Assembly (NCBI RefSeq): GCF_001618865.1
Contig: NZ_CP015136.1
Coordinates: 6,297,001 to 6,361,000 of the forward strand
From: Luteitalea pratensis
GTDB lineage: Bacteria > Acidobacteriota > Vicinamibacteria > Vicinamibacterales > Vicinamibacteraceae
Length of the DNA: 64,000 bases
Direction of reading: 5' to 3'
The notes beneath the pieces were generated by a model that ran no database searches, was not told the origin of the DNA, and saw only the letters and a program-made list of their open reading frames with translations. Each line of letters begins with the position of its first letter. Position 1 is the stretch's first letter. Position numbers and translations under genes: made by a program. Below are positions 6,628-59,098 of this stretch, piece after piece.

Positions 6628-6643
6628 GCGCGCGAAACGCGAT

Positions 6644-6702: not shown

Positions 6703-6719
6703 CGTGGGGTCCTCGACGT

Positions 6720-8114: not shown

Positions 8115-8120
8115 CGGCGG

Positions 8121-9419: not shown

Positions 9420-9542
9420 GAACGACGATGGGCGGTCGAGCGGACAACGGGTGCTGGCCCTCCCCCGGCCGGGATGTCACCTGTGAGATGCTCTGCGGAC
9501 GCGACGCGACAACTCGCCATCGCGTGCGGAGGAGATGGAGCG

Positions 9543-10484
9543 ATGGACCGACGTGCGTTCCTCGGCAGCCTCGTGGCTCCCGCCCTGATGCCCGCCCTTG
9601 CCCGCCAGAGTCCGGCCCCAGCGAACGAGTGGGGCACGGCCGTCTTCGACCTCCATTTTCATTTGCGCCCGCAGCCGGCGAGCGTGCTGGCCCACCTGGA
9701 CGGTGCGGGCATCACCGGCGCCAACCTGCTCACTCGCGGCGACGCCCGCGAGCGAGTCGAAGCGCTGCAGGCGACGGCGCCTGGCCGCTTCACGTGGTTC
9801 GCCAGCGACGACATCTCGGACCCGGCCGCGCAACAGCGACTCACCATGGCCGTGAAAGCGGGGGCCCGCGGCTTCGGCGAGCTGAAGTTCCATGTGACCG
9901 CCGACGGCCCGGAGTTGCAGCGCATGTACGCGCTCGCAGGCGAACTGGGCGTGCCGATCCTCGTGCACTTCCAGGAAGTGGATCATTTCCCCGGCGAGGG
10001 CACCTGGGCCACCGGATACGCGCGCACGTTCGACAAGGTGCTGGCGGCGCATCCGAAGACGACCTTCATCGGTCACGCCGACGCGTTCTGGGCCAACATC
10101 AGCGCCGACTACCGCGACCAGGCGGCCTATCCGACCGGCCCGATCGTCCCTGGCGGGGTCACCGACCGATGGCTGGCTGACCACCCCAACCTGTTTGCCG
10201 ACATATCAGCCAACTCCGGCAACAATGCGCTCTCGCGTGACCCGGCCTTCACTGCGGCGTTCCTCGAACGCCACCAGGACAAGCTGATGTTCGGCAGTGA
10301 CTGCGGCTGCAGTGACGGACACGGCGGTGGCGTCAGCCAGAACAACAATCCCGCCGCAACGCGCATGGCTGGAAAATGCGTGGCGAGGGAGACGCTCGGC
10401 CTGCTCAAACGGACGACGACGCCAGCGATCTTCAGCAAGATCACCTGGGGCAACGTCCATGCATTGCTGAAGGTGCCCGCCTGA
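9543..10484 (+). CDS. Amidohydrolase-family TIM-barrel hydrolase, exported (Tat-like signal)
   Basis: A 313-residue protein starting MDRRAFLGSLVAPALMPALA, a twin-arginine-type signal. The mature part has FDLHFHLRP (HxH metal motif), FGELKFHV (a metal-bridging Lys or nearby residue), LVHFQEVDHF, FIGHADAFW and FGSDCGCSDGHGGG. This is the amidohydrolase-2 (PF04909-like) pattern of metal-dependent hydrolases and decarboxylases. I chose the ATG at 9543 for its strong ribosome site AGGAGATGGAGCG, although the frame is open far upstream. It is divergent from the P450. The Cys-rich GSDCGCSDGHGGG loop is a distinctive feature of this subgroup. Substrate is unknown. Confidence 0.8.
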   Translation: MDRRAFLGSLVAPALMPALARQSPAPANEWGTAVFDLHFHLRPQPASVLAHLDGAGITGANLLTRGDARERVEALQATAPGRFTWFASDDISDPAAQQRLTMAVKAGARGFGELKFHVTADGPELQRMYALAGELGVPILVHFQEVDHFPGEGTWATGYARTFDKVLAAHPKTTFIGHADAFWANISADYRDQAAYPTGPIVPGGVTDRWLADHPNLFADISANSGNNALSRDPAFTAAFLERHQDKLMFGSDCGCSDGHGGGVSQNNNPAATRMAGKCVARETLGLLKRTTTPAIFSKITWGNVHALLKVPA

Positions 10485-10745
10485 ACCCAGCGTACGGGTG
10501 TAGCGCCTCGCCCCAGCCGGGCGCCACGCAGACTGACGACCGCGGTCGAGCTCGTACCTGATAGGCCCTGTCCGGCATGTTGACGGCATGTGAACAAAGT
10601 GTGAAAACGGACCCGCCGGCACTCGTTAACAGGAATTTCATCGTCACAAGAGGACGATTCCTGCCGCCGGCAGGACATGCCAGCCCCCCGGCAGGCGTAC
10701 TCCAAGTCATCCGGCAGCGATCGAGCAGCCGGCACGGACCCATTC

Positions 10746-12110
10746 ATGACCACTACGAGCGACGCGCAACCTGACCTCACGCATCCCGAGCCGACCCCGC
10801 GTCGGCGTTTCCGCCCATGGCAATGGCTCATCGGCCTCTTGCTGGTCGCCGGCGGTGCGGGCCTGGTCTGGTACTACGACTTCGGCACGCCGGCGGCGCG
10901 GCCCGGCCAGTTCGGCGGCGGTGGGGGCGGCGGTCGAGGCCCCGGTGGGCCAGGAGGAGGAGGCCCGGGAGGGCGCCGGCCGGACGAGAAGCCACCGGTC
11001 CGGGTAGTCACGGCCGAGACGCGGAATATCGGCGTGGCGCTGAAGGCGCTCGGCACGGTGACGCCGATCAATACGGTCACGGTGCGCCCTCGCCTGGACG
11101 GCGAGCTCGTGAAAGCCCACTTCACCGAGGGACAGCGCGTGCGCGAAGGCCAGTTGCTGGCAGAGATCGACGCGCGACCGTACGAGGTCGCGCTGGCGCA
11201 GGCGCAGGGCAACAAGGCCGAGAACGACGCCCGGCTGAACAATGCCCGCGCTGACTTTGCCACCTACCAGTCGCTCTTCGAGCGTCAGCTGATTCCCAAG
11301 CAGCAGCTCACCGCGCAGGAGGCGCTGGTCAAGCAGGTGGAGGGCACCGTCCAGTCCAACGACGCCCAGGTGAACAACGCGAAGCTGCAGCTGTCCTACA
11401 CGAAGATCGTCGCCCCGATTTCGGGCCGGCTCGGGTTGCGGCAGGTGGACGTCGGCAACCTCGTACGCTCCGGCGACGCCAACGGCATCGTGGTGATCAC
11501 CCAGATGCAGCCGATCTCGGTGCTGTTCACCGTGCCCGAGACCGATCTGCCGGCGGTGCTCGACGCGATGGGCCGCGGTCAACGGCTGGCCGTGCAGGCC
11601 TGGGATCGCGCCGAGACGACCCAGCTCGCGACGGGCACGTTGCAGACGGTCGACAACCAGATCGACACGACGACCGGCACCATCCGCCTGCGTGCGGTCT
11701 TCGTCAACGCCGACGACAAGCTGTTCCCCAACCAGTTCGTCAACATCGTGCTCAGCCTGTCGACGCTGCGGGACGCGACCGTCGTGCCATCGGCGACAAT
11801 CCAGCGCGCCTCGTTCGGTACCTTCGTGTACGGGGTCAACGACGAGAACAAGGCCACGGTGCGTCGCGTGACGCTCGGCCCGGCCGAGGGTGAGCGCGTC
11901 GCCGTCACCGAAGGGCTCAAGCCGGGCGATCGCGTCGTGCTGGAGGGCGTCGACCAGCTGCGCGAAGGCGTCACCGTGGAAGTGGTTGCCGCGGCGACCG
12001 ACCGTGATGCGCCCGTGGCGCCGCGCCGTCCGCGCGGCCAGCGTGGCGCGCCGCCAGGACAGGCGACGACCGGCGCCAAGGCGGAGCCAAAGTCGGAGAC
12101 AAAGCGATGA
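10746..12110 (+). CDS. mdtA-like: RND efflux periplasmic adaptor subunit, MdtA-like
   Basis: A 454-residue membrane-fusion protein. One N-terminal membrane anchor ([20 protein letters not shown], about residues 26-45) is followed by an unusual Gly-rich linker of about 30 residues. Then come the barrel-sandwich/lipoyl domain ([33 protein letters not shown]), a coiled-coil hairpin, [25 protein letters not shown], and the beta-barrel and membrane-proximal domains. It links inner-membrane RND pumps to an outer-membrane channel. It overlaps the first permease by ATGA at 12107-12110. No outer-membrane factor gene is present, as in mdtABC operons that borrow TolC. The start at ATG 10746 precedes the membrane anchor. 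An earlier in-frame ATG at 10677 is less likely. Confidence 0.9.
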
Positions 12111-15100
12111 ACATCTCGCGCCCATTCATCCAGCGACCGGTGGCAACCGCGCTCCTGATGGGGGCGTTGCTGCTGTCGGGCATGCTCGCGTACCGGCTCC
12201 TGCCGGTCTCGGCGTTGCCGCAGGTCGACTACCCGACCATCCGCGTGCTGACCTTCTACCCGGGCGCCAGCCCGGAGGTGATGACGAGCGCCGTGACGGC
12301 GCCGCTCGAGCGGCAGTTCGGACAAATCCCCGGGCTCGATCAGATGTCGTCGACCAGTTCGGGGGGCGCGTCAGTGCTGACGCTGCGCTTCTCGCTGGAC
12401 AAGAAAATCGAGGTGGCCGAACAAGAAGTGCAGGCGGCCATCAACGCCGCCGGCAACCTGCTGCCCAACGATCTGCCGCAGCCGCCGGTCTACAACAAGG
12501 TCAATCCGGCCGACACGCCGGTCCTCACCCTGTCTGTCACCTCGCCCACGATGCCGCTGCCCGCAGTCTACGACCTGGTGGACACGCGCATTGCGCAGAA
12601 GCTCTCGCAGTTGCCCGGTGTCGGGCTTGTGAGCATCGCCGGCGGCCAGCGGCCCGCCGTTCGCATCCAGGCCAACCCGCAGGCCCTGGCTGCCCACAAC
12701 CTGAACCTGCAGAGCTTGCGGGCCGTGATTGCCGCGGCCAACGTCAATCAGCCGAAGGGCAACTTCGACGGCCCCGAGCGCTCGTTCATGCTCGACGCCA
12801 ACGACCAGTTGCGGTCGGTGCAGGCGTACAAGGACCTGATCATCGCCTACCAGGACGGTGCGCCGCTGCGCTTGTCGGACGTGGCGCAAGTGGTCGACGG
12901 CGCCGAGAACACGCGCCTCTCGGCATGGGCCGACGATGCACCGGCCGTGCTGGTGAACATCCAGCGGCAGCCTGGCGCCAACGTCATCGACGTGGTGGAT
13001 CGGATCCGCGCCGTGCTGCCTCAACTCACCGCCAGCCTGCCCGAAACGGTGTCGGTTGCGGTGCTGAGCGACCGTACCGATACGATCCGCGCCTCGGTGC
13101 GCGACGTGCAGCACGAGTTGGTGTTCGCCGTGGCGCTCGTCGTGATGGTCACCTTCGTCTTCCTGCGCAACGTGCCCGCCACCATCATCCCCAGCGTCGT
13201 GGTGCCGCTGTCGCTGATCGGCACGTTCGGCGTCATGTACCTGGCCGGCTACTCCATCAACAACCTGACGCTGATGGCCCTGACCATCGCCACCGGCTTC
13301 GTCGTCGACGATGCCATCGTCATGGTGGAGAACATCGCCCGCTACCTCGAGGAAGGGGCTACGCCGATGCACGCCGCGCTCGAAGGGGCCCGGCAGATCG
13401 GCTTCACGCTGGTGTCGCTCACGGTGTCGCTGATCGCCGTGCTGATTCCGCTGCTGTTCATGGCCGACGTCGTCGGCCGCCTGTTCCGCGAGTTCGCGAT
13501 CACGCTGGCGGTCTCGATCCTCATCTCGCTGGTGGTCTCGCTGACGCTGACCCCGATGATGTGCGCGCGCCTGCTCAAGGCGGAACACGACGAGTCGCAC
13601 GGGCGGCTCTACCGCGCGACCGGATACATCCTCGACAAGACGATCGAGCTCTACGGAAGGGCGCTGAACGTCGCGCTGCGCTACGAAGCGGTGACGCTCC
13701 TCATCGCGCTGGCGACGATGGCGCTGACGGCCTGGCTCTACATCGTCATCCCGAAGGGCTTCTTTCCGGTGCAGGACACCGGGGCCATCCAGGTGATCAC
13801 CGAGGCGCCGCAGACCGTGTCGTTCTCGGCGATGGCCGACCTGCAGCGAGACGCGGCGCGCGCCATCCTGAAGGAGCCTGACATCCACGGCCTGTCGTCG
13901 TTCATCGGCGTCGATGGCTCCAACGCGACGCTGAACAGCGGCCGCATGCTGATCACGCTGACGTCGCACGAGATGCGTCACCGCAGCGCCACCGAGATCA
14001 TCGCGTCGCTGCGCGACCGCGTGGCCAAGGTGCCGGGCATCATCCTGTACTTCCAGCCCGTGCAGGACCTGACCATCGAGGACCGGGTCAGCCGCACGCA
14101 GTTCCAGTTCACGCTCGAGGACCCGGACGCGAACCGTCTCGCCGAATGGGTGCCGAAGCTGCTGGCGCGGCTGCAGAAGTCGCCCTTTCTCGCGGACGTG
14201 GCCAGCGACCTGCAGGACCGCGGCCTGCAAGCCTTCGTGGACATCGACCGCGATGCCGCCAGCCGCCTCGGCATCCGCGTCGCCGCCATCGACGATGCGC
14301 TCTACGACGCGTTCGGCCAGCGGCTGATTTCGACGATCTACACGCAGGCCAACCAGTATCGCGTCGTGCTCGAGATCGATCCGCGCTTCCAGGTCGGCCC
14401 CGAAGCGCTCGGGCAGGTGTTCGTCATGACGGGCGACAGCCGCCAGGTGCCGCTGTCCAGCCTGGCGACCATCAAGGAGCGCAATACCCAGTTGGTCATC
14501 AGCCATGCTGGCCAGTTCCCTGCCGTGACGATGTCGTTCAACCTGGCGCCCGGAGCGTCACTGGGCAGTGCCGTGGCGGCAATCGAGGAGGCGCAGGCCG
14601 AGATCCGCATGCCGGCCAGCGTCCAGACGACGTTCCAGGGAGCCGCGGCGGCGTTTCGCGCGTCGCTCGACAGCACACTGCTGCTGGTGCTCGCGGCCAT
14701 CGTGACGATGTACGTCGTGCTCGGCGTGCTCTACGAGAGCTACATCCACCCGATCACCATCCTCTCGACGTTGCCGTCGGCCGGCGTGGGCGCGCTGCTC
14801 GCACTGCTGATGACCGACCGTGACCTCAGCTTGATCGCCATCATCGGCATCATCCTGCTGATCGGCATCGTCAAGAAGAACGCGATCATGATGATCGACT
14901 TCGCGCTCGATGCCGAACGCAACGACGGGCTCAGCCCGCGCGACGCGATCTACCAGGCGGCGCTCCTGCGCTTCCGGCCGATCCTGATGACAACGCTGGC
15001 GGCGCTGTTCGGCGCGCTGCCGCTGATGCTTTCGACGGGTTCCGGCGCCGAGATGCGTCAACCGCTCGGTGTGGTCATGGTGGGTGGCCTGCTCGTCAGC

Positions 15101-15208
15101 CAGGTACTCACGCTCTTCACGACGCCGGCGATCTACCTCTTCTTCGACCGGATCGCGCGTGCCTGGCGGACGTCCCGCCAGTCCGTGGCCGTGGAGGAGC
15201 CGGCATGA
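12107..15208 (+). CDS. mdtB-like: RND multidrug efflux permease, MdtB-like
   Basis: A 1033-residue inner-membrane transporter of full RND length with 12 predicted membrane helices and two large periplasmic loops. It opens [19 protein letters not shown], typical of HAE1 permeases. The proton-relay pair is intact in [16 protein letters not shown], and the helix-4/helix-10 and C-terminal motifs ([16 protein letters not shown]) are present. It is coupled by ATGA overlaps to both neighbours. Two different consecutive permeases with one adaptor match the MdtB/MdtC arrangement, in which both subunits form a mixed trimer. Substrates such as bile salts or novobiocin are known for E. coli MdtBC but cannot be read from this sequence. 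Confidence 0.92.
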
Positions 15209-18200
15209 GCCTGTCCTCGCCATTCATCGAGCGTCCGGTCGCTACGACGCTGCTCAGCCTGTCGGTGGTGATGGTCGGCGTGCTTGGCTACATGCTGCTG
15301 CCCGTGTCGCCGCTGCCGCAGGTGGACTTCCCCGCGATCTCGGTGTCGGCGTCGCTGCCCGGCGCCAGTCCCGAGACGATGGCCTCGAGCATTGCAACTC
15401 CGCTCGAGCGGGCACTCGGCACGATCGCCGGCGTCAACCAGATCGATTCGCAGAGCTCGCAGGGCTCGACGCGGATCTTCATCCAGTTCGATCTGGGCAA
15501 GAACATCGACACCGCCGCCCGCGAGGTGCAGGCGGCGATCAATGCGTCGCGCTCACTTTTGCCGAGCTCGCTGCCAGGGATGCCGCAGTACCGCAAGATC
15601 AACCCCTCGCAGGCGCCGATCATGCTGCTGGCACTGACCTCGAAGACCGCGACCTCAAGCGAACTGTACGACCTCGCGTCGACGGTGCTCGCGCAGAAGG
15701 TCGCGCAGGTGATTGGGGTCGGCGACGTCACGGTGGGCGGTGGCTCGCTGCCTGCCGTTCGCGTCGAGTTGCAGCCGCAGGCGCTCACCCAGTACGGCAT
15801 CTCGCTCGACCAGGTGCGCCAGTCGATCAGCGGTGCGAATCTCCTGCGGCCGAAGGGGATCATCGAGGACGGCGAGCGGCACTGGCAGATCCAGGCCAGC
15901 GACCAGCTGACGAAAGCCGCCGACTACCGACCGCTCGTGATTGCCTATCGCGGCGACGCGCCGGTGCGACTGCAGGACGTCGCCAACGTCTACGACGGCA
16001 TCGAGGACCGCTACAACGCCGGCTACTTCAATAACGAGAATGCCGTGCTGCTCGTGGTCAGCCGGCAGCCCCAGGCCAACATCATCGCCACCGTCGACGG
16101 CGTGATGGAGCAGCTGCCCGCCCTGCGCGCGTTCCTGCCGGCCGGCGTGTCGCTCGACGTCGCCAGCGACCGATCGCCCACCATCCGCGCCACGCTGCAG
16201 GAGGCACAGCGGACCCTGCTCATCGCCGTGGCCCTCGTCGTCTTCGTCGTGCTGCTGTTCCTGGCGAATTTCCGCGCCGCGATGATCCCGGTCACCGCCG
16301 TGCCGGTGGCGCTGGTCGGCAGCTGCGCCGTGATGTACCTGTGGGGCTTCTCGCTCAACAACCTGTCGCTGATGGCGCTGATCGTGGCCACAGGCCTGGT
16401 CGTCGACGACGCCATCGTGGTGCTCGAGAACATCTCGCGGCATGTCGAGGAAGGCATGGCGCCGATGGCCGCGGCGCTGCAGGGCGCCAGGGAAGTGGGG
16501 TTCACCCTCCTCTCGATGAACCTGTCGCTGGTGGCGGTGTTCGTGTCGATCCTCTTCATGGGCGGTATCGTCGAGCGGCTGTTCCGCGAGTTCTCGATCA
16601 CGCTGGTGGCGGCGATCCTGATCTCGCTGGTCGTGTCGCTGACGCTCACGCCGATGCTGTGCGCGCGCTGGCTGTCTGCACGCCGGCTGCGCCCGGGGCG
16701 CCTGCAGCGGATCAGCGATGCCGTGTTCGGCCGCCTGCGGCGCGGCTATGGCCGTTCGCTCGACTGGGCGTTACACCACGCGCCGATCATCCTGATGCTG
16801 TTCATCGGCGTGGCCGCGCTCAACGTCCACCTGTACATGAAGGCGCCCAAGAGCTTCCTGCCGGACCAGGACACAGGTCAGCTGGGCGGCTTCATCCGTG
16901 GCGACGACGGCATGTCGTTCCAGATCATGCAGCCGAAGATCGATGCGTTCCGCAAGGCGGTGCTGAAGGATCCGGCGGTCGAAAGCGTGGCCGGGTTCAT
17001 CGGTGGCGGGCGCGGCATCAACAACGCCCAGATCTTCGTGCGCCTCAAGCCGCTGAAGGAGCGCATGGTCTCGGCGCAGGTGGTGGCCGACCGCATTCGC
17101 CGCAATCTTCCGCCGGTTGCCGGCGCGCGGATGTTCCTGAACGTGGACCAGGACATCCGCTTCGGCGGCGGCTTCGGTCGTGGTACCTACTCGTACACGC
17201 TGCGCGCCGACGACCTCGGCCTCTTGCGCGTCTGGGGCCAGCGGATCCGCTCGGCATTGTCCCAGTTGCCGGAGGTCACCGGCATCGAGGACGAACTGAT
17301 CTCCAGCCAGCAGATCACCCTGGACGTGGATCGCGAGGCAGCCCGTCAGCTCGGCATCGAGATGAACACGGTGACCCAGGCGCTCAACAACGCGTTCGGC
17401 CAGCGGCAGGTGTCGACGATCTACAACGCGATGAACCAGTACCGCGTCGTGATGGAGGTCGCACCGCGTTTCGCCCAGGGACCCGAAGCCCTCGACGAGG
17501 TCTATGTGGTGACCGCGGCCGGCCGCGTCCCCTTGTCGTCGTTCAGCCACTACACACGCAGCACGGCCAACGATCGTGTCAGCCGCAACGATCAGTTCGC
17601 GTCGACGAGCATCGGCTTCGAGCTGGCGCCCAACGTCAGCCTGAGCCAGGCCGAGACGGCCATCAACCGCGCCGTCTCGCTGCTTACCATGCCCTCGTCG
17701 GTGCAGGGCCGGCTGCAGGGCAACGCCAGCCTGTTCCAGCGCATGCAGGGTAACCAGCCGGTCGCCATCCTCGGCACGCTGCTGGTCGTCTACATCGTGC
17801 TCGGCGTGCTCTACGAGAGCTACGTCCACCCGCTCACCATTCTGTCGACGCTGCCGTCGGCGGGTGTGGGCGCGCTGATCGCGCTCCTGCTGCTCAAGAC
17901 CGACTTCAGCCTCGTCGCGCTGCTGGGGGTGTTCCTGCTGATTGGCGTCGTGATGAAAAACGCGATCCTGATGATCGACGTCGCGCTGCAGATCGAGCGG
18001 GAACGAAACGCCACGCCAATCGCGGCGATCCGGGAAGCGTGCCTGCTGCGGCTGCGGCCGATCCTCATGACGACCATGGCGGCGCTGCTCGGGGCCCTGC
18101 CGCTGATGCTGGGCGAGGGCGAAGGCGCGGAACTGCGGCGTCCGCTCGGCATCGCGATCGTCGGGGGCCTGGCCATGAGCCAGATACTGACGCTGTACAC

Positions 18201-18336
18201 GACGCCGGTCGTCTACTTGTATCTCGAGGAGATCCGCACCAAGTTCTCACGGCGGCGGGCCGCGAGGCGTCATGCCCCGCCGCGCCCGTCGGAGGACACG
18301 GCGCAGGTGACGTCGATGCCTGCGCACGGCCAGTAA
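15205..18336 (+). CDS. mdtC-like: RND multidrug efflux permease, MdtC-like
   Basis: A 1043-residue RND permease beginning [20 protein letters not shown]. It has the same architecture as the preceding gene but a clearly different sequence, so it is an old paralogue and not a recent duplicate. The proton-relay Asp pair is in [16 protein letters not shown], and [17 protein letters not shown] marks the end of the last helices. The ATG overlaps the previous stop (ATGA at 15205-15208). In MdtBC the C subunit is thought to bind drug while B drives protons. Which of the two does which here cannot be told. The C-terminal tail is basic and proline-rich. No outer-membrane channel gene follows. Confidence 0.92.
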
Positions 18337-49717: not shown

Positions 49718-50641
49718 GCCGTCGAACGTGCGGTAGGACATGCCCTCGTCGGGCGTGTGCGTGAGGCCCCAGGGGTTGCCGTTGGGAATCATCGTCTGTT
49801 CGGGCCCCGACACGGTGAACTCGAAGTCGGGGGACTCGACATCGACTCGCTCGATCCCGCTCGCGCTGTACGCTGCCCCCGATAGAGCGCCGATGTCGTA
49901 GCTGGTCACCACACGACCGAGCGCATCGAGGACCGCCAACCCCGTTACTCGCATCGTGTAGCTGGCCGTGACCGACGTATTGGCCGGCAAGTTCCTGAAG
50001 AGGCGCGCGGCATGCCCGAACCCGATCATGACGTTGAACGGCACGCCAGCAGTGAATGGAATGCCGCCCAGCGTCCGAGTGACCGCCACCGAGTGCTGGG
50101 TGGTGTCGAGCGGCGTGTCCTGGATGACGGCCTTGCCGTCCGGACCATACAGCTGCACGCCGACACTGGCGGTGAACGGCAAGACGACACCGGACCAGTC
50201 CGTCGTGCCCTCGATCGTCACCCTCGGCACGAGTTGATACGATCCCGGCGTCAGGCCGCGAACGACGACGATGTCGCGAAACGTGGCATAGCCGTTCGCG
50301 CTCTCGGCGCTCCCCGCCATCGACCCGGGCGCCGTGTCGGTCATGGTCGACTGCGTGGTGAGCAGCCCGATCGTCGCGCTGCTGGATCCGCAGGCACGCG
50401 CTGTCGGCGTCGAGAGCATGCAGCCAGTCACCGACGCCAGTGGTCGCGATAGTGCCTCGACGTAGTCGGACGGACCAGCCGCCGCGACCGATCCGTCGAG
50501 GTAATAGTTGATATTGGCCGAATACGCGACTGGCGCTGGTCCCGCCGACACGGGCGATGGCAGCGCCACAACCCACAGCATCACGGCCGCCCTCGTCATT
50601 CGAGCGAGGGCAACATAAGGGGCAAGGGCAATCTGGCGCAT
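49676..50641 (-). CDS. 5' part of the frameshifted secreted protein
   Basis: This frame encodes the N-terminus: a signal peptide (RAAVMLWVVALPSPVSAG, about residues 17-34), a beta-rich region with GMSYRTFDGG near its end, then 12 meaningless codons and a stop at 49676 after the frame break. The correct continuation, starting LRMWFVGG, lies one base out of phase. A probable start is the ATG at 50641 or the ATG at 50599 nearer the signal. It is divergent from the exported carbamoylase-type gene. No catalytic residues were recognised. Confidence 0.65.
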   Translation of the reverse strand: MRQIALAPYVALARMTRAAVMLWVVALPSPVSAGPAPVAYSANINYYLDGSVAAAGPSDYVEALSRPLASVTGCMLSTPTARACGSSSATIGLLTTQSTMTDTAPGSMAGSAESANGYATFRDIVVVRGLTPGSYQLVPRVTIEGTTDWSGVVLPFTASVGVQLYGPDGKAVIQDTPLDTTQHSVAVTRTLGGIPFTAGVPFNVMIGFGHAARLFRNLPANTSVTASYTMRVTGLAVLDALGRVVTSYDIGALSGAAYSASGIERVDVESPDFEFTVSGPEQTMIPNGNPWGLTHTPDEGMSYRTFDGGCACGSSAVSARS

Positions 50642-50703
50642 GCCGATCCGCCCTGAAGGGTGCGCGGATGATACTCCGACAGCCCGACTGTACTATCTGC
50701 GGT

Positions 50704-52023
50704 ATGTCACCGCATAGAGTCACCCGTCGGGACTTCAACGCAACCTTCGTCGGTTCGATTGCCGGATTATCGACGGCCCGTCCGGCATTCGCGCAAGACA
50801 CCGCCGCGCGCGTCGATGCGACACGGCTACAGACGACGTTGATGGACCTGCGGCGATTCGGGGGCACGCCTGCGGGCGGCACGCATCGCCTCGGCTACAG
50901 CACCGAGGACAAGCAGGCCCGGCTCGTCGTCGCCGGCTGGATGCAGGAGGCCGGCCTCGTTCCCGCCACAGACCTCGCCGGCAACCTGATCGGCCGCCGT
51001 GCCGGCAGCACCTCGGGCCTGCCACCCATCGTGTTCGGCTCGCACATCGACTCGGTGCCGGACGGAGGCAGCTACGACGGCAACGTCGGCACGATGGCGG
51101 CGATCGAGGTCGCACGCACGCTGCAGGATCGCCGTGTGACCTTGCGACACCCGATCGAGGTCGCCGTGTGGGCCAACGAGGAGGGCGGCCTGTTCGGCAG
51201 TCGTGCGGTCAGCGGCCAGTTCGAAGAAACCGAACTCGCTCACGTCACGTCGAGCGGCAAGACCGTGCGCGATGGCATCAGCTTCGTTGGCGGCGATCCG
51301 GCGCGGCTCGGCGAGGCACGTCGTGACCGCGGTAGCGTCGCCGCGTACCTCGAACTCCACATCGAACAGGGCGGCATCCTCGAGGCAGAGCGCGTGCCGA
51401 TTGGCATCGTCGAGGGCATCGTCGGCATCCGGCAATGGGACGTGACGGTGACGGGACTTGCCAATCACGCCGGGACGACACCGATGGACAAGCGCCAGGA
51501 TGCGCTGCTCGCGGCGGCCCGTTTCGTGGACATGGTCAATCGAGTCGTCAGGGCGACGCCGGGACGCCAGGTCGGCACGGTTGGCAGAATGCAGGTCAGC
51601 CCGGGTGCGCGCAACGTAGTCCCTGGCAGCGTGGTCTGTTCACTGGAGTTGCGCGACCTGGATGCGGCCGCCATCCTGCGGTTCTACGACGCCATCCGAG
51701 GAGAAGCCGACCGAATCGGCGATGCGACCGGGACGACGTTCGCGTACAGGGAACTTCACGTCAATGCGCCCGCGCCGAGCGACCCGCACATGCGCAGCAT
51801 CATCGCCGATGCAGCCCGTGCATTGGGGCTCGAAACGAAGGTGATGCCGAGCGGCGCCGGCCACGACGCGCAGGCGATCGCGCAACTCGGGCCGATGGGG
51901 ATGATTTTCATCCCGAGCGTCGGCGGCATCAGCCATTCGCCCAAGGAGTTCTCGCACCCCACCGACATCGCCAACGGCGCGAACGTGCTGCTGGGCGCCG
52001 TGATGTCGGCCGACGCGATCTGA
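50704..52023 (+). CDS. Zn-dependent hydantoinase/carbamoylase-family amidohydrolase, Tat-exported
   Basis: A 439-residue protein. TRRDFNATFVGSIAGLSTA near the N-terminus is a twin-arginine signal. The M20-type catalytic domain has GSHIDSVPDGGSYDGNVG (His, Asp), WANEEGGLFG (Glu pair) and YLELHIEQGGILE, and the last ligand in GGISHSPKEF. ANHAGTTPMDKRQDA is the typical signature of N-carbamoyl-L-amino acid hydrolase, beta-ureidopropionase and allantoate amidohydrolase. Most relatives are cytosolic, so export is unusual. I chose the ATG at 50704 because the Tat motif follows at once. No purine or pyrimidine genes are adjacent, so the substrate is open. Confidence 0.85.
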   Translation: MSPHRVTRRDFNATFVGSIAGLSTARPAFAQDTAARVDATRLQTTLMDLRRFGGTPAGGTHRLGYSTEDKQARLVVAGWMQEAGLVPATDLAGNLIGRRAGSTSGLPPIVFGSHIDSVPDGGSYDGNVGTMAAIEVARTLQDRRVTLRHPIEVAVWANEEGGLFGSRAVSGQFEETELAHVTSSGKTVRDGISFVGGDPARLGEARRDRGSVAAYLELHIEQGGILEAERVPIGIVEGIVGIRQWDVTVTGLANHAGTTPMDKRQDALLAAARFVDMVNRVVRATPGRQVGTVGRMQVSPGARNVVPGSVVCSLELRDLDAAAILRFYDAIRGEADRIGDATGTTFAYRELHVNAPAPSDPHMRSIIADAARALGLETKVMPSGAGHDAQAIAQLGPMGMIFIPSVGGISHSPKEFSHPTDIANGANVLLGAVMSADAI

Positions 52024-52027
52024 CGCC

Positions 52028-53503
52028 CTACCGTGCCTTCATGAACGCCTCGACCTCCGCGATCGTGCGTGGGACCGCCGCGGAGAGGCTCGTGAGCCCG
52101 GTGTCGGTCAACAGGAACGAGTCCTCGATACGGATGCCGATCTGCGCGTACCTCTGGACGGCGGGGAGCACCGCCGCCGTGAAGGCGCGGTTTTCGGGCG
52201 TGTCGGGCAGTTCGTCGAGCGCCTGCGGACGAATGTAGAGGCCCGGCTCGACAACGAACGTCATGCCGGAAGCGAGCGGACGCTGGTAGTCGCCGACGTC
52301 GTGGACGTCGATGCCGATCCAGTGGCAGATGCCGTGGGTGTACCACGTCCGGAACTGCTCGCCTGTCGCATCGGTAATCAGGCCGAGCTTCAGCAAGCCG
52401 GCCTTGACGACTTCTTCGGCGGCCTTCTCGACGTCGGCCGTCTTGTTGCCGACACGCGCGGCGCGCATGCCGGCCTCCTGCGCCTCGAACACGAGGCGGT
52501 AGATGTCCTTCTGCGCCTCGGTGTAGGCACCGCTCACGGGATAGCTGCGGGTGATGTCGATGGTGTAGCCGTCGTAGCTGCCCGCCGCATCCACGAGCAG
52601 GATCTCGCCGGCCTGCATCTGCCGGCTGGATGCGCCGTAGTGGAGGATCGTCGCGTTCGGCCCGCTACCGACGATGGACGGGTAGCCGGGGTTCATGGCG
52701 CCGTTGGCGAGATAGACCTGCTCGATGGCGGCTTCGACTTCGTACTCGTACCTGCCGGGGCGTGCCGCGGTCATGCCGGCCTTGTGCGCGCTGCTCGAGA
52801 TGACACCGCTCCTGGTCAGCACCGACTGCTCGTACGGCGTCTTGACCAGCCTGAGGTCGGCGATGATCGGAGACGCATCGACGAACGTGACGTTCAGGAA
52901 GCGGTCACGCGCCCTGGCCGCGAACTCGTACGGCGCCGTCAGCGGCGCCGACGGCGCGGGGCGCGGTCCGAACGGCAACGAGAGCGTCGCCTTGTTGGCG
53001 GCCACGGCCTCGAAGAACACGTCGAACTCCGTCGAGACCTCGTTGCGCCTGAGCCCGAACACATGCCGGTTGAAGAGCGCGGTCACGAACGGCTCGAACT
53101 GGTTGCCGAAATGGACGGTCTTCACCCCGCTCTGGGCGGCGACTTCGGCCCTCGTGAGGATGTGACCTTCGCGGTGCTCGCGCGCCGGGTTGGGCTCGCG
53201 GACGAACAGCACTTCGCGGACGGTCCTTGCGCCCGGGATCAGGACGAGGATCGTGTCCGGCTGGGCGACTCCGGTGAGATACAGCAGGTCGCTGTCCGGG
53301 CGGTATTCGTAGTCGACGTCGCGGGAATAGACCCTGGTCGGGGCGCTCCACACGATCGCGATCGTGTCTGTGCCCAGCTTCTCCATCAGGCGCGCGCGTC
53401 GAGCTGCCAGGTCGTCCTGCAGTGGCCCCGCCCACACCAGGGACGCTCTCGCCAGGACTGTCAGTACCGCCATCGCCACCACACGCGCCGTTTGCCGAAC
53501 CAT
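52028..53503 (-). CDS. Secreted Xaa-Pro aminopeptidase (aminopeptidase P family)
   Basis: A 491-residue exported protein with signal peptide (about residues 1-25, ending SLVWA). The pita-bread catalytic domain has the di-metal ligands in LVDAAGSYDGYTIDITRSYPV (two Asp), THGICHWIGIDVHDVG (His), VVEPGLYI (Glu) and GIRIEDSFLLT (Glu). The N-terminal creatinase-like domain begins RRARLMEKLG. Aminopeptidase P releases the N-terminal residue before proline. A secreted copy would degrade proline-rich peptides outside the cell. It faces the carbamoylase-type gene 3' to 3' with a 4-bp gap. Confidence 0.9.
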   Translation of the reverse strand: MVRQTARVVAMAVLTVLARASLVWAGPLQDDLAARRARLMEKLGTDTIAIVWSAPTRVYSRDVDYEYRPDSDLLYLTGVAQPDTILVLIPGARTVREVLFVREPNPAREHREGHILTRAEVAAQSGVKTVHFGNQFEPFVTALFNRHVFGLRRNEVSTEFDVFFEAVAANKATLSLPFGPRPAPSAPLTAPYEFAARARDRFLNVTFVDASPIIADLRLVKTPYEQSVLTRSGVISSSAHKAGMTAARPGRYEYEVEAAIEQVYLANGAMNPGYPSIVGSGPNATILHYGASSRQMQAGEILLVDAAGSYDGYTIDITRSYPVSGAYTEAQKDIYRLVFEAQEAGMRAARVGNKTADVEKAAEEVVKAGLLKLGLITDATGEQFRTWYTHGICHWIGIDVHDVGDYQRPLASGMTFVVEPGLYIRPQALDELPDTPENRAFTAAVLPAVQRYAQIGIRIEDSFLLTDTGLTSLSAAVPRTIAEVEAFMKAR

Positions 53504-53681: not shown

Positions 53682-55118
53682 TCAGCCACGACGCGTCAGT
53701 TGACGAGCCGCCTGCATGGCTCGGCGACGTGCCTCGAGGATCTGGCCGGTTTCGCGCGCCAGGCGCGGGCTCGCCTCAAACAACGTGCGGACCGTCTCGG
53801 GCGACATCCACAGGACCGCACAATCGAGGCTCGCGACGGCACGCATCTCGGCCGGCTGCACGCCGTACATGCCGGCTTCGCCGAAGTACTCACCGGCCGC
53901 GACGGCACCGATCGGACTGTAGACGCCGTCCGCGCCGACTTCGAGCGATACCGCGCCGGAAATGAGCAGGTAGACGCCGCTCAGCTCGCTGCCCTCGCTG
54001 AAGATCACCTCGTCCCGGCCGAACGTCAGCGCGCGCACTTGCCCTTCGTCGTCAGACAGCGTCGACACCTTCGAGAGGCGCCGCAGTTGCTCCACAGGTG
54101 GCACCACCGGCGGCACGAAGGGCCCCTCGGCGTCGTAGTTGATCTGTCGCACGACCGGGTACGGCATCGTCAGGCCGCGGCGTTTGGCGACGTACCAGAT
54201 CCGCGTGACGACGTCGTTGCGTACGGGCCAACGGTCGTCCTCGGTGGTGCGGTAGATCAGCTTGTAGCTGATGGCCGAAGGCGTGTATGCGAAGGTCGCG
54301 GCGATCGGGGCCGGATCCTGCATCACACCGGGCGTGCCCTGCGCCACTTCGAGCAAGCTGTCGCGGACCAGGTTGGGCGGATCGTCGTAACTGAAGGCGA
54401 CCTCGATCTCCTCCATCCGGACCGGCCGCGGACGCGAGTAGTTGTTGATGATCTCCTTGTTCAATGTCGAATTCGGGACGATCTGCACGACGCCGCGCGC
54501 CGACTTGATGTGCGCCGACCGCCAGTTGATCTCCTTGACGACACCGGACGCGCCGGCGACCTCGACGTTGTCGCCGACCTCGAACGGTCGCTCCATCAGC
54601 AGCATCAGGCCCGAGAACAGGTTGCCGAGTGGTTCCTGCAGCGCGAGGCCGACGACGATCGACGTGACGCCGAGTGCTGCAAGCGCGCCGCTCAGTTCCC
54701 GGCCCCACACGAATGAGAAGACCAGCGCACCGGCTGTGGCGACAAGCAACAGGCGCACGAGATCGCGCAGCAGTTTCGGCACCCGCGACTGCCAGCTGCC
54801 CTGGGACGCCTGCTCGAAGACGACCGTGTTGATCGCGCCCAGTACCGCGAGGACGACGCAGACCCAGAACAACGTCAGTGCAAGGCGGACCCACAGGTGC
54901 TCACCTGGCAGGTCCAGCACGTTGCGGAGGAAGAGCACGAAGACGAGCGCAGACAGGACCCATGTCCGCACGAACCGCACCGACGTCGCGATGGGGCGGC
55001 CGCGGCGCACGAGATCGAACGCCAGCTCGTTGAGCGCGAGCAGCGCCGCCGGGAACGCCAGCACCAGCGCCAGGGCCCACATCCACCGCGCGCCGAGATC
55101 GGCGAGGAGTTGGTTCAT
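53682..55118 (-). CDS. MscS-family channel with C-terminal cyclic-nucleotide-binding-like domain
   Basis: A 478-residue inner-membrane protein. Four hydrophobic segments precede the MscS pore helix and vestibule (ALAALGVTSIVVGLALQEPLGNLFSGLMLLMERPFEVGDNVEV, about 145-190). A C-terminal cNMP-binding-like beta roll (about 355-450) follows. In the phosphate-binding cassette the sequence is YFGEAGMYGVQPAEMRA. Glu is kept, but the Arg of the usual PRS/PRA position is Ala423, so ordinary cAMP/cGMP binding is doubtful. Relatives are called bacterial cyclic-nucleotide-gated channels. The ATG overlaps the stop of the cyclase-like receptor gene (ATGA, 55115-55118), a strong hint that the two proteins act together. 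Confidence 0.85.
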   Translation of the reverse strand: MNQLLADLGARWMWALALVLAFPAALLALNELAFDLVRRGRPIATSVRFVRTWVLSALVFVLFLRNVLDLPGEHLWVRLALTLFWVCVVLAVLGAINTVVFEQASQGSWQSRVPKLLRDLVRLLLVATAGALVFSFVWGRELSGALAALGVTSIVVGLALQEPLGNLFSGLMLLMERPFEVGDNVEVAGASGVVKEINWRSAHIKSARGVVQIVPNSTLNKEIINNYSRPRPVRMEEIEVAFSYDDPPNLVRDSLLEVAQGTPGVMQDPAPIAATFAYTPSAISYKLIYRTTEDDRWPVRNDVVTRIWYVAKRRGLTMPYPVVRQINYDAEGPFVPPVVPPVEQLRRLSKVSTLSDDEGQVRALTFGRDEVIFSEGSELSGVYLLISGAVSLEVGADGVYSPIGAVAAGEYFGEAGMYGVQPAEMRAVASLDCAVLWMSPETVRTLFEASPRLARETGQILEARRRAMQAARQLTRRG

Positions 55119-57223
55119 GCGGCGTCCCCGGCCACCGGATACAGCTCGATCGCGCCAAGGCCGCGGATGTCGACCATTCGGGGCGCATCGAACGGGACAG
55201 ACTCCCGCACGCGATCGTAGACGGCGCGTGTCACGACGATGGTGCCGACACCCTGCCGCTCGATGTCACGCGCCAGCCGCACGGTGTCGCCCCAGAGGTC
55301 GTAGATGAACTTCCGCCGGCCGACAAGACCCGCGACAATCGGTCCGGTGTTGATGCCGGCCTCGAGCGTCAGCGCGGTCCCACGCTCGGCGTTGAAACGG
55401 CGCACGATACGTGCGGCTTCGCGCGCGAACTCGACGACCCTGGCGGTGTGATCCGGGCGATCGACCGAGAGGCCCGACGCCGCCAGGTAGGAGGAACCGA
55501 TCGTCCGGACCTTCTCGACGCCATGCTGTTCGGCCGCTTCGTCGAACGCCGCGACGATGTCGCTGAGGAGCGTCATCGACTGATCCTCGCCAAAGTCGCG
55601 GGAGAGCGAGTCGAAACCGCTGAGTCGGGCGTAGGCTACCGTCACGTCGGCAAACGATTTCGGCGCATCGGACCCGCCACGGACCTGCGCCGCACCGGAT
55701 GCTGGCAGCAGGCTCAGGAGGAGGCGTTCGTTGGTCTGCACCTGGGCGTCGAGCGCAATGCGGCTCGCACCCAGGTTGTGGACCATCTCGTTGAAGGCCT
55801 CGCCCAGCGCACGGAACTCGTCATGGGCATTGACCTGCACGCGCGTCTCGAGGTTGCCTGCACTGACCTCGCGTGCCGCCCGCACCAGTTCGGCGATGGG
55901 GCGGGTGATGATCGACGCAAGGGCGAGCGCAAGCAACGACGCCAACAGTGACAGCGCCACTCCCACCGCCAGGATCCGGCGTCCCAGTGCATGCAGGGGC
56001 GCCATGGCCTCGCTGCGATCGATCTTGGTGAGCAGGGCCCAGCGCAATGAGTCGAGATCGACGGGCCCGTAGGCGGTGAACACGTCCTTGCCGCGGTAGT
56101 CCTCGGTCTCGATGAAGCCGCTGGCGCCGTTGAAAGCGGCACGAGCGCCATCGTGGGCGATCGGCACCGTCAGGATCGTGGTACCGAGCCTGCGTACCTC
56201 GTCGATCGTGCGGGCGGTCAACCTGGAATGACCGAGCGTCTCGAGAAAGTTCGCCCTGTCCTCTACCAGGAACCGGGAATCGACACGCATGGTCATGTCG
56301 GGACCAACGAGGTACGCCTGCCCGGTCTTGCCGAGCCCCTCGGCCTCCCAACCCCCGTTGTTGGAGAGCGCCTGCGCGATCGGCTCGATCGGGAAGCGCA
56401 GGATCATGATCGCCACCAGATCCGGGCCGACGAACACGGGGCTGGCAATGAAGGCCCTGGGCTGGCCGAGCGCCGGCCGGAACGACTCGAAGTCGGTGAA
56501 CTTGTAGTCGTCCTCGTCCTGCGAGCGCCGCAGCGCCCGCGCGAGTGTGGCCACGCCGCTGCCCGAATACGGTCCCGAGTCCAACGTTGTGCCGAAGATG
56601 GTCGACTGGTCGTAGCTGAAGATCACCTCGAGCGACTCCGGATCGACGAGGACGACGTTGTCGAGGCCCAGCCGATCGAGCGACGGCCCGAGCACGTTTC
56701 GCGCCCTGACGAGGGCTGCGGCAAACGCACTCTTGTCCGTGGACGACTCGAGCCGGCGCCGCTGTCCGTACGGGTGGCCGCCGTTCACCATGTAGTGGTA
56801 GTGGAGGTACCAACCGGTGTCGGTCGTCGGCAGGAAGGCGTCCTTCGCGGGCGCCAACCTGGTGCGAGCCGCCAGCGCCGGTTCGAACTCGCGGGTGTAG
56901 AAGGCCCGAACGGCATCCCGCATCTCGGGCGTGACCTGCTCGCGCGACAGCTGACGATACGCGGCCGTCAGGTCCGGGACGACCTGGCTGAGCCCGTCGC
57001 TACCCGACAGCGCCAGCACCTCGTTCTTCGTCGAGGTGAGGATGCTGCGGACAATGCCGGCCTTCGAGCGCTGAAGCCCGACGAGCTGTCGCTCGATCGA
57101 GGTCAGCAGGCTGGCTCGCGCGGTCGTGTACGCCGTGTACGACACCATCGCGATCCCCAGCAGCGTGAGCAGGGTGAAGGCGAGCAGCAGCTTGGATTGG
57201 ACACTCAGGGAGCGAAGAGCCAT
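55115..57223 (-). CDS. CACHE-HAMP receptor with degenerate class III cyclase domain (pseudocyclase)
   Basis: A 702-residue inner-membrane receptor. Helix one (about 10-30), a periplasmic CACHE-like domain (about 35-390), helix two (ILAVGVALSLLASLLALALAS), HAMP (RPIAELVRAAREVSAGNLETRV) and a C-terminal cyclase-fold domain (about 522-690). In that domain the metal Asp of FADIVGF is Arg533 (YARLSGF), the second metal Asp of KTIGDAY is Ser577 (RTIGSSY), and the Asn and Arg of VNxASR are Arg649 and Asp653 (VRLARDIE). IYDLWGDTV is kept. Catalysis is therefore unlikely, and the domain may be a binding or regulatory module. It is translationally coupled to the MscS/CNBD channel downstream. ATG 57223. 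Confidence 0.85.
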   Translation of the reverse strand: MALRSLSVQSKLLLAFTLLTLLGIAMVSYTAYTTARASLLTSIERQLVGLQRSKAGIVRSILTSTKNEVLALSGSDGLSQVVPDLTAAYRQLSREQVTPEMRDAVRAFYTREFEPALAARTRLAPAKDAFLPTTDTGWYLHYHYMVNGGHPYGQRRRLESSTDKSAFAAALVRARNVLGPSLDRLGLDNVVLVDPESLEVIFSYDQSTIFGTTLDSGPYSGSGVATLARALRRSQDEDDYKFTDFESFRPALGQPRAFIASPVFVGPDLVAIMILRFPIEPIAQALSNNGGWEAEGLGKTGQAYLVGPDMTMRVDSRFLVEDRANFLETLGHSRLTARTIDEVRRLGTTILTVPIAHDGARAAFNGASGFIETEDYRGKDVFTAYGPVDLDSLRWALLTKIDRSEAMAPLHALGRRILAVGVALSLLASLLALALASIITRPIAELVRAAREVSAGNLETRVQVNAHDEFRALGEAFNEMVHNLGASRIALDAQVQTNERLLLSLLPASGAAQVRGGSDAPKSFADVTVAYARLSGFDSLSRDFGEDQSMTLLSDIVAAFDEAAEQHGVEKVRTIGSSYLAASGLSVDRPDHTARVVEFAREAARIVRRFNAERGTALTLEAGINTGPIVAGLVGRRKFIYDLWGDTVRLARDIERQGVGTIVVTRAVYDRVRESVPFDAPRMVDIRGLGAIELYPVAGDAA

Positions 57224-57243: not shown

Positions 57244-58935
57244 TCAGAAGCGCGACGATCGCGTCCAGGTGTCGGCACGCGCCCAGGCCTTCTCCAGGTC
57301 GGCGTCGATGGCGGCATCCTTTCGGCCCTGCCCTTCGAGGGCCTGACGAAGTCCGAGGAGCGACCAGCCATTGCGGGGATGCTGCTCGAGGTCCTCGCGA
57401 TACACGCGTTCGGCGTCCGCGAAGCGCCCTGCCTCGATGAGGGCGGCGCCGAGCCAGTGGCGCGCCGGGAAGGGCAGCGGTTCCGGCTCGTCGTACTCCA
57501 GCGCGTCGTCTTGCGCGACGGCGGACTCGAATCTCGCGATCGCCGCGTCGAGCTGTTTCTCGTCGCGCAGGATCTCGCCGTCGAGCAGGTCGGCGGCGAG
57601 GCCGAGCAGGCGGTTCGCCGGATGGTCGCGGAACTCCGCCTTGGGCGTCTCGGCGCCCTTGCGGACGCGCGCGAGATAGACCTTGGCCATGTCCGCCTGG
57701 CCTGTGCGGAGATAGGCGTAACCCTGGGCGAAGTCCCACAAACCGGCAGGGATCGGACGGTTGGGCCGAGGCTTCACCTCGAGCACTTCTTCGAAGCGGC
57801 CGAACCGGATCAGCGTCAGCACCTGGTACATCGTGTCCTTGGCGCGCCTGGCGTAATCGCGGCCCGCGGTCGTGGCGATCGCGCCCTGCCCGTCCATCGA
57901 GGCCGCGTACAGCAGCATGTGCAGGTTGTGCTCCGGGTAGATGGCGAAGCCCTCGCCGACGTCGGCCTTCATGTCGGAGTGGACGGCATCGAGGTTGGAG
58001 CGCACCGAGTCGCCCCAGCGTCCGACCTCGTTCCACGTGTGCGACGGCATGTGGTTGATGTGGCTCGCGCCGGGGATGGACTTACCGAGGTATTCGGCAC
58101 AGGCCTCCGCCTTGTCGGGCCGTACGGTCGACTCGGTGGCGTGCACGTAGAGGTGGCAGGCGCCCGGATGCTTCGGGTCGCGCGCCAGGATGCCTTCGAG
58201 GACACCATGGAGGCGCTGGATGTTCGGGGCGTTGACGTCGCGGCGACCCTTGCGTGGCTCGAGCAGGAACAGGGCCTCGGCATACAACGTGCGCGCGTCC
58301 ATATCGTCGGGATACTTCTCCGACAGGCGTCGCGTGGACTCGGCGTATGCCTCGTCCTGCACGCGGCGCTTCTCGGGATCGAAGTCCTTCACGTAGCGGA
58401 CCGCCAGCGCGTCGATATAGTCGCGTTCGACCGGGCTCGCCTTCGCCTTCAGCGAGAGCGCGGTGCGCGATGACGCGTACGCAAACGGTGCGTCTTCGGC
58501 GTCCATCTTCCCGTTCAAGTACGAGCCCCAGGCCCACGCCTCTCCCCAATGGCAGATGGCGCAGGCCGGATCGGCTGACCACGCGGCGCGGAACGACCGG
58601 ATCGCATCCGCCTTCGCGAAGGCGAACATCATCTGTATGCCCTGGGTGAAGAATGCCTGTGCCTCGGCGTTGTTCGAAGAAATGGCACGCGTGTACGGAC
58701 CGAGAGCCTTCGGCATCAGCGCGATCGGCTTCTTGATCATCTCGGGGAGTTCGCCGGGCCTGGCCGGCGACGCCGGTGCCGACGCCGATGGGGGCGGCAC
58801 CTGGGCGTGCCCGGCATGCGACGCTGCGGTCGCCTGCTCCTGCGCCGCGGTACCCGTCGACATCGTCACGACCACACAGAGAGGGAACCAGACGCTCGCC
58901 CTCAGGCGTGTCGCCTCGTGAATCCAGTCGAGCAT
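57244..58935 (-). CDS. Secreted TPR-repeat protein
   Basis: A 563-residue exported protein (signal about residues 1-32, followed by a Pro/Ala-rich stretch VPPPSASAPASPARP). Tetratricopeptide-like repeats follow, such as QAFFTQGIQMMFAFAKADAIRSFRAAWSADPACAICHWGEAWAWG and WSLLGLRQALEGQGRKDAAI. The CAICH string has the spacing of a haem-binding motif, but in this family the related site reads CxMCYWG and belongs to a TPR helix, so I do not take it as cytochrome. It sits 20 bases upstream of the receptor gene on the same strand and may lead the same transcript. Function is unknown. Confidence 0.75.
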   Translation of the reverse strand: MLDWIHEATRLRASVWFPLCVVVTMSTGTAAQEQATAASHAGHAQVPPPSASAPASPARPGELPEMIKKPIALMPKALGPYTRAISSNNAEAQAFFTQGIQMMFAFAKADAIRSFRAAWSADPACAICHWGEAWAWGSYLNGKMDAEDAPFAYASSRTALSLKAKASPVERDYIDALAVRYVKDFDPEKRRVQDEAYAESTRRLSEKYPDDMDARTLYAEALFLLEPRKGRRDVNAPNIQRLHGVLEGILARDPKHPGACHLYVHATESTVRPDKAEACAEYLGKSIPGASHINHMPSHTWNEVGRWGDSVRSNLDAVHSDMKADVGEGFAIYPEHNLHMLLYAASMDGQGAIATTAGRDYARRAKDTMYQVLTLIRFGRFEEVLEVKPRPNRPIPAGLWDFAQGYAYLRTGQADMAKVYLARVRKGAETPKAEFRDHPANRLLGLAADLLDGEILRDEKQLDAAIARFESAVAQDDALEYDEPEPLPFPARHWLGAALIEAGRFADAERVYREDLEQHPRNGWSLLGLRQALEGQGRKDAAIDADLEKAWARADTWTRSSRF

Positions 58936-58978
58936 GCGACGTAGCTTACCCCCTGAGCGCACAGCCCTGACCAACGCG

Positions 58979-58998
58979 GAACGCCGAACGCCGAACGC
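58979..58998. repeat. Family D repeat (GAACGCCGAACGCCGAACGC)
   Basis: Three near-perfect CGAACGC units lie in the 163-bp gap upstream of the TPR gene. Confidence 0.6.
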
Positions 58999-59098
58999 AG
59001 GCCGCACCGGGCTGTGCCAGCCACGCCTGGAATGTTGCCGCCCGCCGGTGGCGCTCGAGACCGGTTGCCAGAAACCGCTCGCGCTCACGCCGCCGGCG

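Follow-up and report, generated by a model that had tools for sequence, protein, structure and literature searches.

bCNG channels, members of the MscS superfamily with a C-terminal CNBD (Caldwell 2010; Malcolm 2012), combine an MscS pore and cage with a cNMP-fold domain, and class III receptor adenylyl/guanylyl cyclases (Rv1625c/Cya, CyaB, mammalian AC) place a cyclase fold behind a membrane sensor. Not every cNMP fold, however, is a cyclic-nucleotide receptor. In CNNM transporters such as CNNM4 the phosphate-binding Arg is replaced by Ser/Pro and the pocket Glu is lost, no cNMP binds and the domain dimerises (PMC6940986), and the corresponding domains of KCNH channels, which probably also lack the Arg, do not bind cNMP (PMC3854790). 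In the trypanosomatid PKA regulatory subunit the Arg is replaced by a polar residue while the pocket Glu is kept, and a second Glu, two residues after the first, makes the pocket nucleoside-selective (PMC10959531). Pseudokinases are familiar, but a bacterial receptor pseudocyclase that keeps a fixed ion-channel partner did not appear in the papers searched.

To characterize a candidate for such a module, we analysed a window of 64,000 nucleotides from Luteitalea pratensis (contig NZ_CP015136.1), in which a receptor gene (P0001) and a channel gene (P0002) overlap on the minus strand (Table 1). The results confirm the main observations of the earlier note, which had reported a receptor with all four expected catalytic positions of its cyclase domain replaced, adjacent to an MscS channel whose cNMP fold retains the Glu but not the phosphate-binding Arg. 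The best structure match of the receptor is 3r5g, and its best sequence matches are AC9 and bacterial Cya chains. The note had also assigned a CACHE sensor. This assignment fits the family, since all eight relatives in a nine-member alignment (A1) match dCache_1 at E 0.01 or better, but P0001 itself does not, with no such match at E 0.1, and a sensor profile searched against PDB sequences returned a single chance match at E 0.31 and no dCache chain. The P0002 structural model is of modest quality (pLDDT 73, pTM 0.41, residues 416-422 below 50), and no inference was drawn from its pocket geometry.

Table 1. Coordinates of the receptor and channel genes and of their constituent regions within the window.
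Feature	Coordinates	Strand	Residues	Description and support
Receptor pseudocyclase P0001	55115..57223	-	702 aa	dCache-type sensor between two long helices inferred to cross the membrane, HAMP, class III cyclase-fold domain without catalytic residues
Sensor region	55994..57121	-	35-410	dCache_1 by homology to relatives
HAMP domain	55772..55921	-	435-484	PF00672, E 3.7e-17
Cyclase-fold domain	55133..55660	-	522-697	Guanylate_cyc, PF00211, E 2.7e-32; fold Z 25.3 to 3r5g over 181 residues, rmsd 2.6; R533, S577, R649 and D653 replace D, D, N and R (two metal Asp, transition-state Asn and Arg); purine-side K571 and D642 kept
MscS-type channel P0002	53682..55118	-	478 aa	MS_channel with C-terminal cNMP-fold domain; start overlaps the receptor's stop codon (+ strand 55115-55118 reads tcat, ATGA on the coding strand)
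CNBD region	53769..54038	-	361-450	cNMP_binding at 365-449; Glu414 kept, Ala423 in place of the phosphate-binding Arg, Glu424 next to it
C-terminal helix	53685..53768	-	451-478	E456 and E462, near-invariant in the Arg-less group and variable in ordinary channels

To determine whether this locus represents a single decayed copy, we searched for homologous pairs and identified 35 (34 plus the window) in the Cyanobacteria, Planctomycetota and Acidobacteriota. In all of them the receptor precedes the channel on the same strand, and in 11 of the 34 the two lie within 10 bases or overlap, with gaps measured from the receptor's stop to the start of the profile match rather than to a proven start codon. 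The channel Arg is absent in 35 of 35 pairs, with Ser in its place in 33, whereas the cyclase quartet is complete in 4 of 34 readable pairs and broken in 30. Because the searches drew genomes evenly from larger groups and scored at most two candidates per genome, rarity and copy number are only rough estimates. The receptor gene of locus L176, split by an insertion, was left out of the cyclase counts, as were from the counts L188 and two L180 ORFs as duplicates of L005 and L001, and the L001 ORF at 9719 as a duplicate of one L180 ORF; L013 is broken in two frames.

In contrast, none of 72 other cyclases shows a loss at these positions (one position was unreadable), and 42 of 45 ordinary MscS-CNBD channels keep the Arg. 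These control channels comprise 40 of 95 matches, chosen as high-scoring and about one per genus rather than at random, plus five others, and flanks were short in 7 of the 40. All 14 ordinary channels with a class III cyclase in the fetched flank are intact on both sides, including one in the same genome as P0001 and P0002 (locus L091), and the sensor of the accompanying cyclase was confirmed as CHASE2 by Pfam in the two scanned (L091 and L198). Twelve of these 14 have both genes on one strand; in 11 of these the cyclase comes first, with 0.6-1.3 kb between the open frames (an M48 peptidase in L091), while in L191 the channel comes first and overlaps.

The interpretation advanced in the earlier note, that the pair kept its architecture and changed its signal, is supported by these comparisons, since 0 of 34 readable pairs combine intact catalytic residues with the Arg. 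The two losses, however, are not locked together, and the order of events requires revision. On a channel tree made without the CNBD, the Arg-less channels fall on one side of a branch (SH-aLRT 98, on a quick tree without bootstrap), suggesting that Arg loss is single and old. Loss of catalytic residues, in turn, is partial and repeated, with the quartet lost about six times under loss-only counting. This count rests on a sensor tree with open forks, a long-branch warning for P0001, L150 and L006, and a chemotaxis protein (L178) falling inside the cyanobacterial cyclases. Furthermore, against the same-genus copy (75% identity), the cyclase-fold domain of P0001 presents a dN/dS of 0.143, indicating purifying selection. 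It is more constrained than its sensor (0.295) and close to the intact CHASE2-type cyclase domain of the same two genomes (0.123). The retention of fold and purifying selection in the absence of catalytic residues is that of a pseudoenzyme of the class III cyclase fold, although lack of activity itself is inferred.

Together, these results suggest a two-gene receptor-to-channel relay operating without a diffusible cyclic nucleotide, a reading to which we assign a probability of about 0.5. In this model, the dCache-type sensor binds a ligand outside the cytoplasmic membrane and HAMP passes the change to a cyclase-fold dimer that no longer makes cNMP; this dimer would act as a moving protein surface that docks on the cytoplasmic cNMP-fold domain and C-terminal helix of the neighbouring MscS channel and biases its gating. 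Absence of catalysis, dimerisation, docking, the direction of gating and the sensed ligand are all inferred, and sequence alone does not show which of the options raised in the earlier note (direct protein contact, a different small ligand, or a dead receptor capturing nucleotides made elsewhere) is correct. Repeated loss of the quartet is as expected if catalysis became irrelevant once the channel stopped needing cNMP. CNNM4 and KCNH provide precedent for cNMP folds that bind no cyclic nucleotide, but the pocket Glu lost in CNNMs is kept here in 35 of 37 Arg-less channels, and P0002 ends right after the C-helix, leaving no room for a KCNH-like auto-ligand strand. No contact between the two proteins has been shown. 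No open frame in the loci read holds both proteins, although fusions were not otherwise searched for, and distance correlation between parts of receptor and channel shows co-inheritance without singling out a cyclase-CNBD contact (cyclase-CNBD rho 0.74, sensor-CNBD 0.84, cyclase-TM 0.83).

Retention of Glu414 fits a ligand with a ribose, and K571 and D642, kept in 26 and 27 of 34 pairs and in all nine A1 rows, fit purine binding. It is therefore possible, though in our view unlikely, that the channel answers to a different small ligand (a nucleoside, ATP/ADP or another metabolite) held by the Arg-less pocket, and that the pseudocyclase binds, traps or presents it. The presence of Ser, rather than random letters, at position 423 in 35 of 37 channels is in line with this view, and trypanosomatid PKA shows that a cNMP domain without the Arg can be a nucleoside receptor. 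Nevertheless, the second Glu of the trypanosomatid pocket is present in 0 of 37 channels, the residue after 423 is Pro in 21 of 37 and Glu or Asp in 6, and, apart from the short linker, the pocket domain is the fastest-evolving part of the channel (dN/dS 0.287; mean identity 0.39 against 0.47 for TM and cage).

Persistence of a cyclic-nucleotide module, through weak catalysis and binding by other residues or with the receptor acting as half of a heterodimer, appears more doubtful. Four pairs (L162, L163, L164 and L166) keep D, D, N and R, L004 and L007 keep Asn and Arg, an Arg lies three residues after Ala423 in P0002 (R426), R or K occupies 426 in 5 of 37 channels, and L159 has Arg at 424. 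However, 30 of 37 channels have Ser or Thr at 426, all of these but L159 without Arg at 424 either. P0001 lacks both the metal Asp pair and the Asn/Arg pair, so that, if the active site is composite as in the likely mechanism of this fold, no intact partner could complete it; heterodimer rescue is rejected on these grounds for P0001, but not excluded for L004 and L007. A comparably improbable alternative is that the two proteins are only co-expressed, with the receptor contacting some other protein and the channel acting as a tension-gated osmotic valve. MscS homology is strong, and either gene can stand alone: channels L189 and L190 have no receptor beside them, receptor L168 has no channel beside it, receptor L006 lies at a contig end and its genome gave no such channel, and the genome of L180 has six such receptors and one channel. 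Yet 35 pairs in three phyla maintain a fixed order, and the channel's C-terminal helix has residues conserved in this group only. Plain decay is rejected, despite the split L176 and the degenerate, unpaired L168, by dN/dS values below 1 in every segment measured (0.10 to 0.68), by maintenance of the pair in three phyla and by conserved gene order in the same-genus genome.

More tentatively, the pairs may represent a widespread bacterial signalling module in which second-messenger wiring was turned into a direct receptor-channel complex, the channel changing first and once and the enzyme dying later and several times. Modules intact on both sides (as in L091), apparently intact enzymes with an Arg-less channel (L162, L163, L164 and L166), which look like living intermediates, and the module in this window would then form a natural series, the first and last of which are found in one genome. 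These observations also caution against calling every receptor cyclase plus CNBD-channel operon a cAMP pathway.

Fixed residues set the group apart on both proteins. Position 586 of the receptor is Ser, Thr or Ala in 34 of 34 pairs and Pro in 72 of 72 other cyclases, and channel residues E456 and E462 are present in 35 and 34 of 37 Arg-less channels, respectively, against 8 and 6 of 42 ordinary channels. In contrast, R595, although invariant in 34 of 34 paired cyclases, is not a residue gained with the pairing, as it is also found in canonical L009 and L010, and N498 is likewise present in the canonical dCache-type rows L009-L012.

To characterize the receptor-channel pair, we first examined the two adjacent genes and their products. 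The receptor (P0001, 702 aa) and channel (P0002, 478 aa) genes overlap, with the stop codon of the former and the start codon of the latter sharing an ATGA. Pfam searches identify HAMP and Guanylate_cyc domains in P0001, and MS_channel plus cNMP_binding domains in P0002. The structure model of P0001 is of good quality (pLDDT 88), and its C-terminal domain has a class III cyclase fold (Z 25.3 over 181 residues at rmsd 2.6 to 3r5g), whereas P0002 is an MscS protein by both sequence and predicted fold. The sensor matches dCache_1 in all 8 relatives aligned with P0001, but not in P0001 itself. Eight proteins of other genomes that match about the first 480-555 of the 698 positions of the profile carry a different output, either chemotaxis (MCP, 5), histidine kinase (2) or STAS (1), so it is a general sensor module.

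Coordinates and strand of the genes and loci analyzed
Feature	Location	Coordinates	Strand
Receptor gene (P0001)	window	55115-57223	minus
Channel gene (P0002)	window	53682-55118	minus
Flanking hydrolase, M24 aminopeptidase P-like and TPR genes	window	50557-53503 and 57244-59088	
CHASE2-cyclase, M48 peptidase and MscS-CNBD module (L091)	window's own genome	G000:C1:7044500-7053500	
Five dCache-type HAMP-pseudocyclase genes in tandem after the receptor-channel pair	planctomycete genome G396 (L180)	6638-18278	
Insertion splitting the paired cyclase gene	L176	about 6090-7200	

Comparison with canonical relatives presenting D, D, N and R revealed that P0001 has R533, S577, R649 and D653 at the corresponding positions, which are expected to constitute the metal and transition-state sites of this fold, while the presumed purine-side residues K571 and D642 remain. 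Similarly, P0002 keeps Glu414 but has Ala423, followed by Glu424, where ordinary channels have the phosphate-site Arg; for the CNBD, the role assigned to the Arg and Glu is supported by published work on related domains (PMC6940986, PMC3854790, PMC10959531). These results confirm the substitutions reported in the earlier note on both members of the pair.

To determine whether these substitutions are specific to this locus, we searched genome contigs with P0001, retaining the best 80 of at least 575 relatives. This search identified eight full-length relatives at 34-37% identity, seven of which have an MscS-CNBD gene directly downstream, while the contig of the eighth ends. Five more dCache-type matches at 29-32% (L009-L013) keep the canonical residues, although L011 has one unreadable position, L012 is partial and L013 is broken in two frames, and show no MscS gene in the fetched flanks. 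Profile searches of genomes detected full-length members in 2 of 396 Acidobacteriota genomes (the window's genome and one of the same genus), with 8 genomes presenting any match and a third genome of the genus (G362) presenting none. Full-length members were also found in 25 of 386 Cyanobacteria, one of them (in genome G779) from profile position 93 on, plus one with a split gene, and in 2 Planctomycetota genomes, the two used as search centers, among 392 sampled in each of two searches. Inspection of the flanking regions yielded a total of 35 pairs, of which 30 are cyanobacterial, 3 planctomycete and 2 acidobacterial. In 34 of 34 pairs measured outside the window, the channel follows the receptor on the same strand. 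The gap to the profile match is 10 bases or less, or an overlap, in 11 pairs, up to about 500 in most others, 957 in the L175 pair and 1716 in the L176 pair, where the cyclase gene is split by an insertion that looks like a transposable element while the downstream channel gene is open. Interestingly, a cyanobacterial branch of the paired pseudocyclases has a C-terminal globin domain (PF00042), detected in six of six long members scanned (L170, L171, L173, L174, L175, L177) and absent in the shorter L169 and L172.

Examination of these pairs revealed two kinds of loss. The channel Arg is missing in 35 of 35 paired channels and in two more found without a receptor, with Ser present in 35 and Ala in 2 of 37. 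In the 34 readable paired cyclases, in contrast, D533 is kept in 17, D577 in 18, N649 in 22 and R653 in 6, and all four residues are kept in 4 (L162, L163, L164 and L166). Hence, an Arg-less channel beside an apparently intact cyclase exists, but no pair of this receptor type with the Arg was found.

As a control, we analyzed the 72 other class III cyclases retained in the initial search (L009-L080), of which 71 have D, D, N and R, with the last having an X at one place. These cyclases are not all without an MscS neighbor. The canonical cyanobacterial cyclases L055 and L072 each have two MscS-type genes about 1 kb downstream, which match P0002 in the pore and cage part and not in the CNBD. We also performed a search with the ordinary channel of the same genome, which matched 90 of 376 Acidobacteriota genomes at 95 places, and read 40 of these plus five others. 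Arg is present in 42 of 45 and Thr in 3; three MscS-CNBD channels of one acidobacterial family (L212, L213 and L230) have Thr instead of the Arg, representing a separate, smaller loss with no cyclase in the fetched flank. A class III cyclase lies in the fetched flank of 14 channels (12 on the same strand), and all 14 cyclases keep D, D, N and R beside an Arg channel. One of these modules (L091) is located in the window's own genome. A recurring layout is apparent at this and other loci (L194, L196, L198-L202, L205 and L206), in which a class III cyclase (CHASE2 in the two scanned, L091 and L198) is followed by a gap of 0.6-1.3 kb, containing an M48 peptidase gene in L091, and then by an MscS-CNBD channel with Arg, a likely genuine cNMP-gated channel operon. 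The contrast between 0 of 35 and 14 of 14 yields a Fisher P of 1.5e-12, although relatedness makes this number only a guide.

To investigate the order in which these losses took place, we inferred a quick tree of the channel pore and cage without the CNBD, on which the 37 Arg-less channels are one side of a branch with SH-aLRT 98. On a tree of the sensor and HAMP, without the cyclase domain, the complete quartet was lost six times under loss-only counting, and position by position the fewest changes are 6, 3, 5 and 6. The simplest history is that the channel gave up the phosphate site once, at the base of the group, and that catalysis in the partner was thereafter free to go and went repeatedly. 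Furthermore, the cyclase domain carries a mark of the paired group at position 586, which is Pro in 72 of 72 other cyclases and Ser, Thr or Ala in 34 of 34 paired ones. The C-terminal helix of the channel likewise has E456 (35 of 37 against 8 of 42) and E462 (34 of 37 against 6 of 42).

We next assessed selection between the window's genome and its same-genus relative (L150), where the locus is in conserved gene order, with the flanking hydrolase, M24 aminopeptidase P-like and TPR genes arranged in the same order around the pair. In the receptor, dN/dS is 0.143 in the cyclase domain lacking catalytic residues, 0.295 in the sensor, 0.140 in HAMP and 0.096 in the linker to the cyclase. In the channel, it is 0.161 in the pore region, 0.195 in the cage, 0.678 in the 30-residue linker, 0.287 in the CNBD and 0.166 in the C-terminal helix. 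The intact cyclase domain of the CHASE2-type gene in the same genomes has a dN/dS of 0.123; the domain without catalytic residues is guarded about as closely as one with them.

Together, these results support and sharpen the proposal of the earlier note that the pair kept its architecture and changed its signal. The pair differs from the known arrangement of a receptor cyclase with an MscS-CNBD channel in being changed on both sides, and full-text literature searches, which did not reach most subscription papers, showed nothing on such a pair. The pseudoenzyme status of the receptor is strongly supported by sequence. A receptor that makes no messenger must pass its signal by contact, and the partner fixed beside it is the channel. 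We therefore hypothesize that the inactive cyclase dimer is a movable docking surface for the cNMP fold and C-terminal helix of the channel, with the ligand of the sensor setting the gating. Direct contact is the best of several readings, at about even odds. cNMP folds that bind no cyclic nucleotide are known in CNNM4, where Arg and Glu are replaced and the domain dimerizes (PMC6940986), and in KCNH (PMC3854790). Against this reading, the pocket Glu is kept in 35 of 37 channels, which leaves room for another ribose-bearing ligand as in trypanosomatid PKA (PMC10959531), although the second Glu of that pocket is absent in all 37. Distance correlation did not point to a particular contact, and no open frame in the loci read joins the two proteins.

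Some members also stand alone. These include the receptor L006 and a degenerate pseudocyclase (L168) and an Arg-less channel (L189) that lie on different contigs of one genome (G508), while another genome (G526) has an extra Arg-less channel alone (L190). In the planctomycete locus L180, moreover, three or four of the four catalytic residues are changed in each of the five additional receptors following the receptor-channel pair, and the genome gave one channel of this type.
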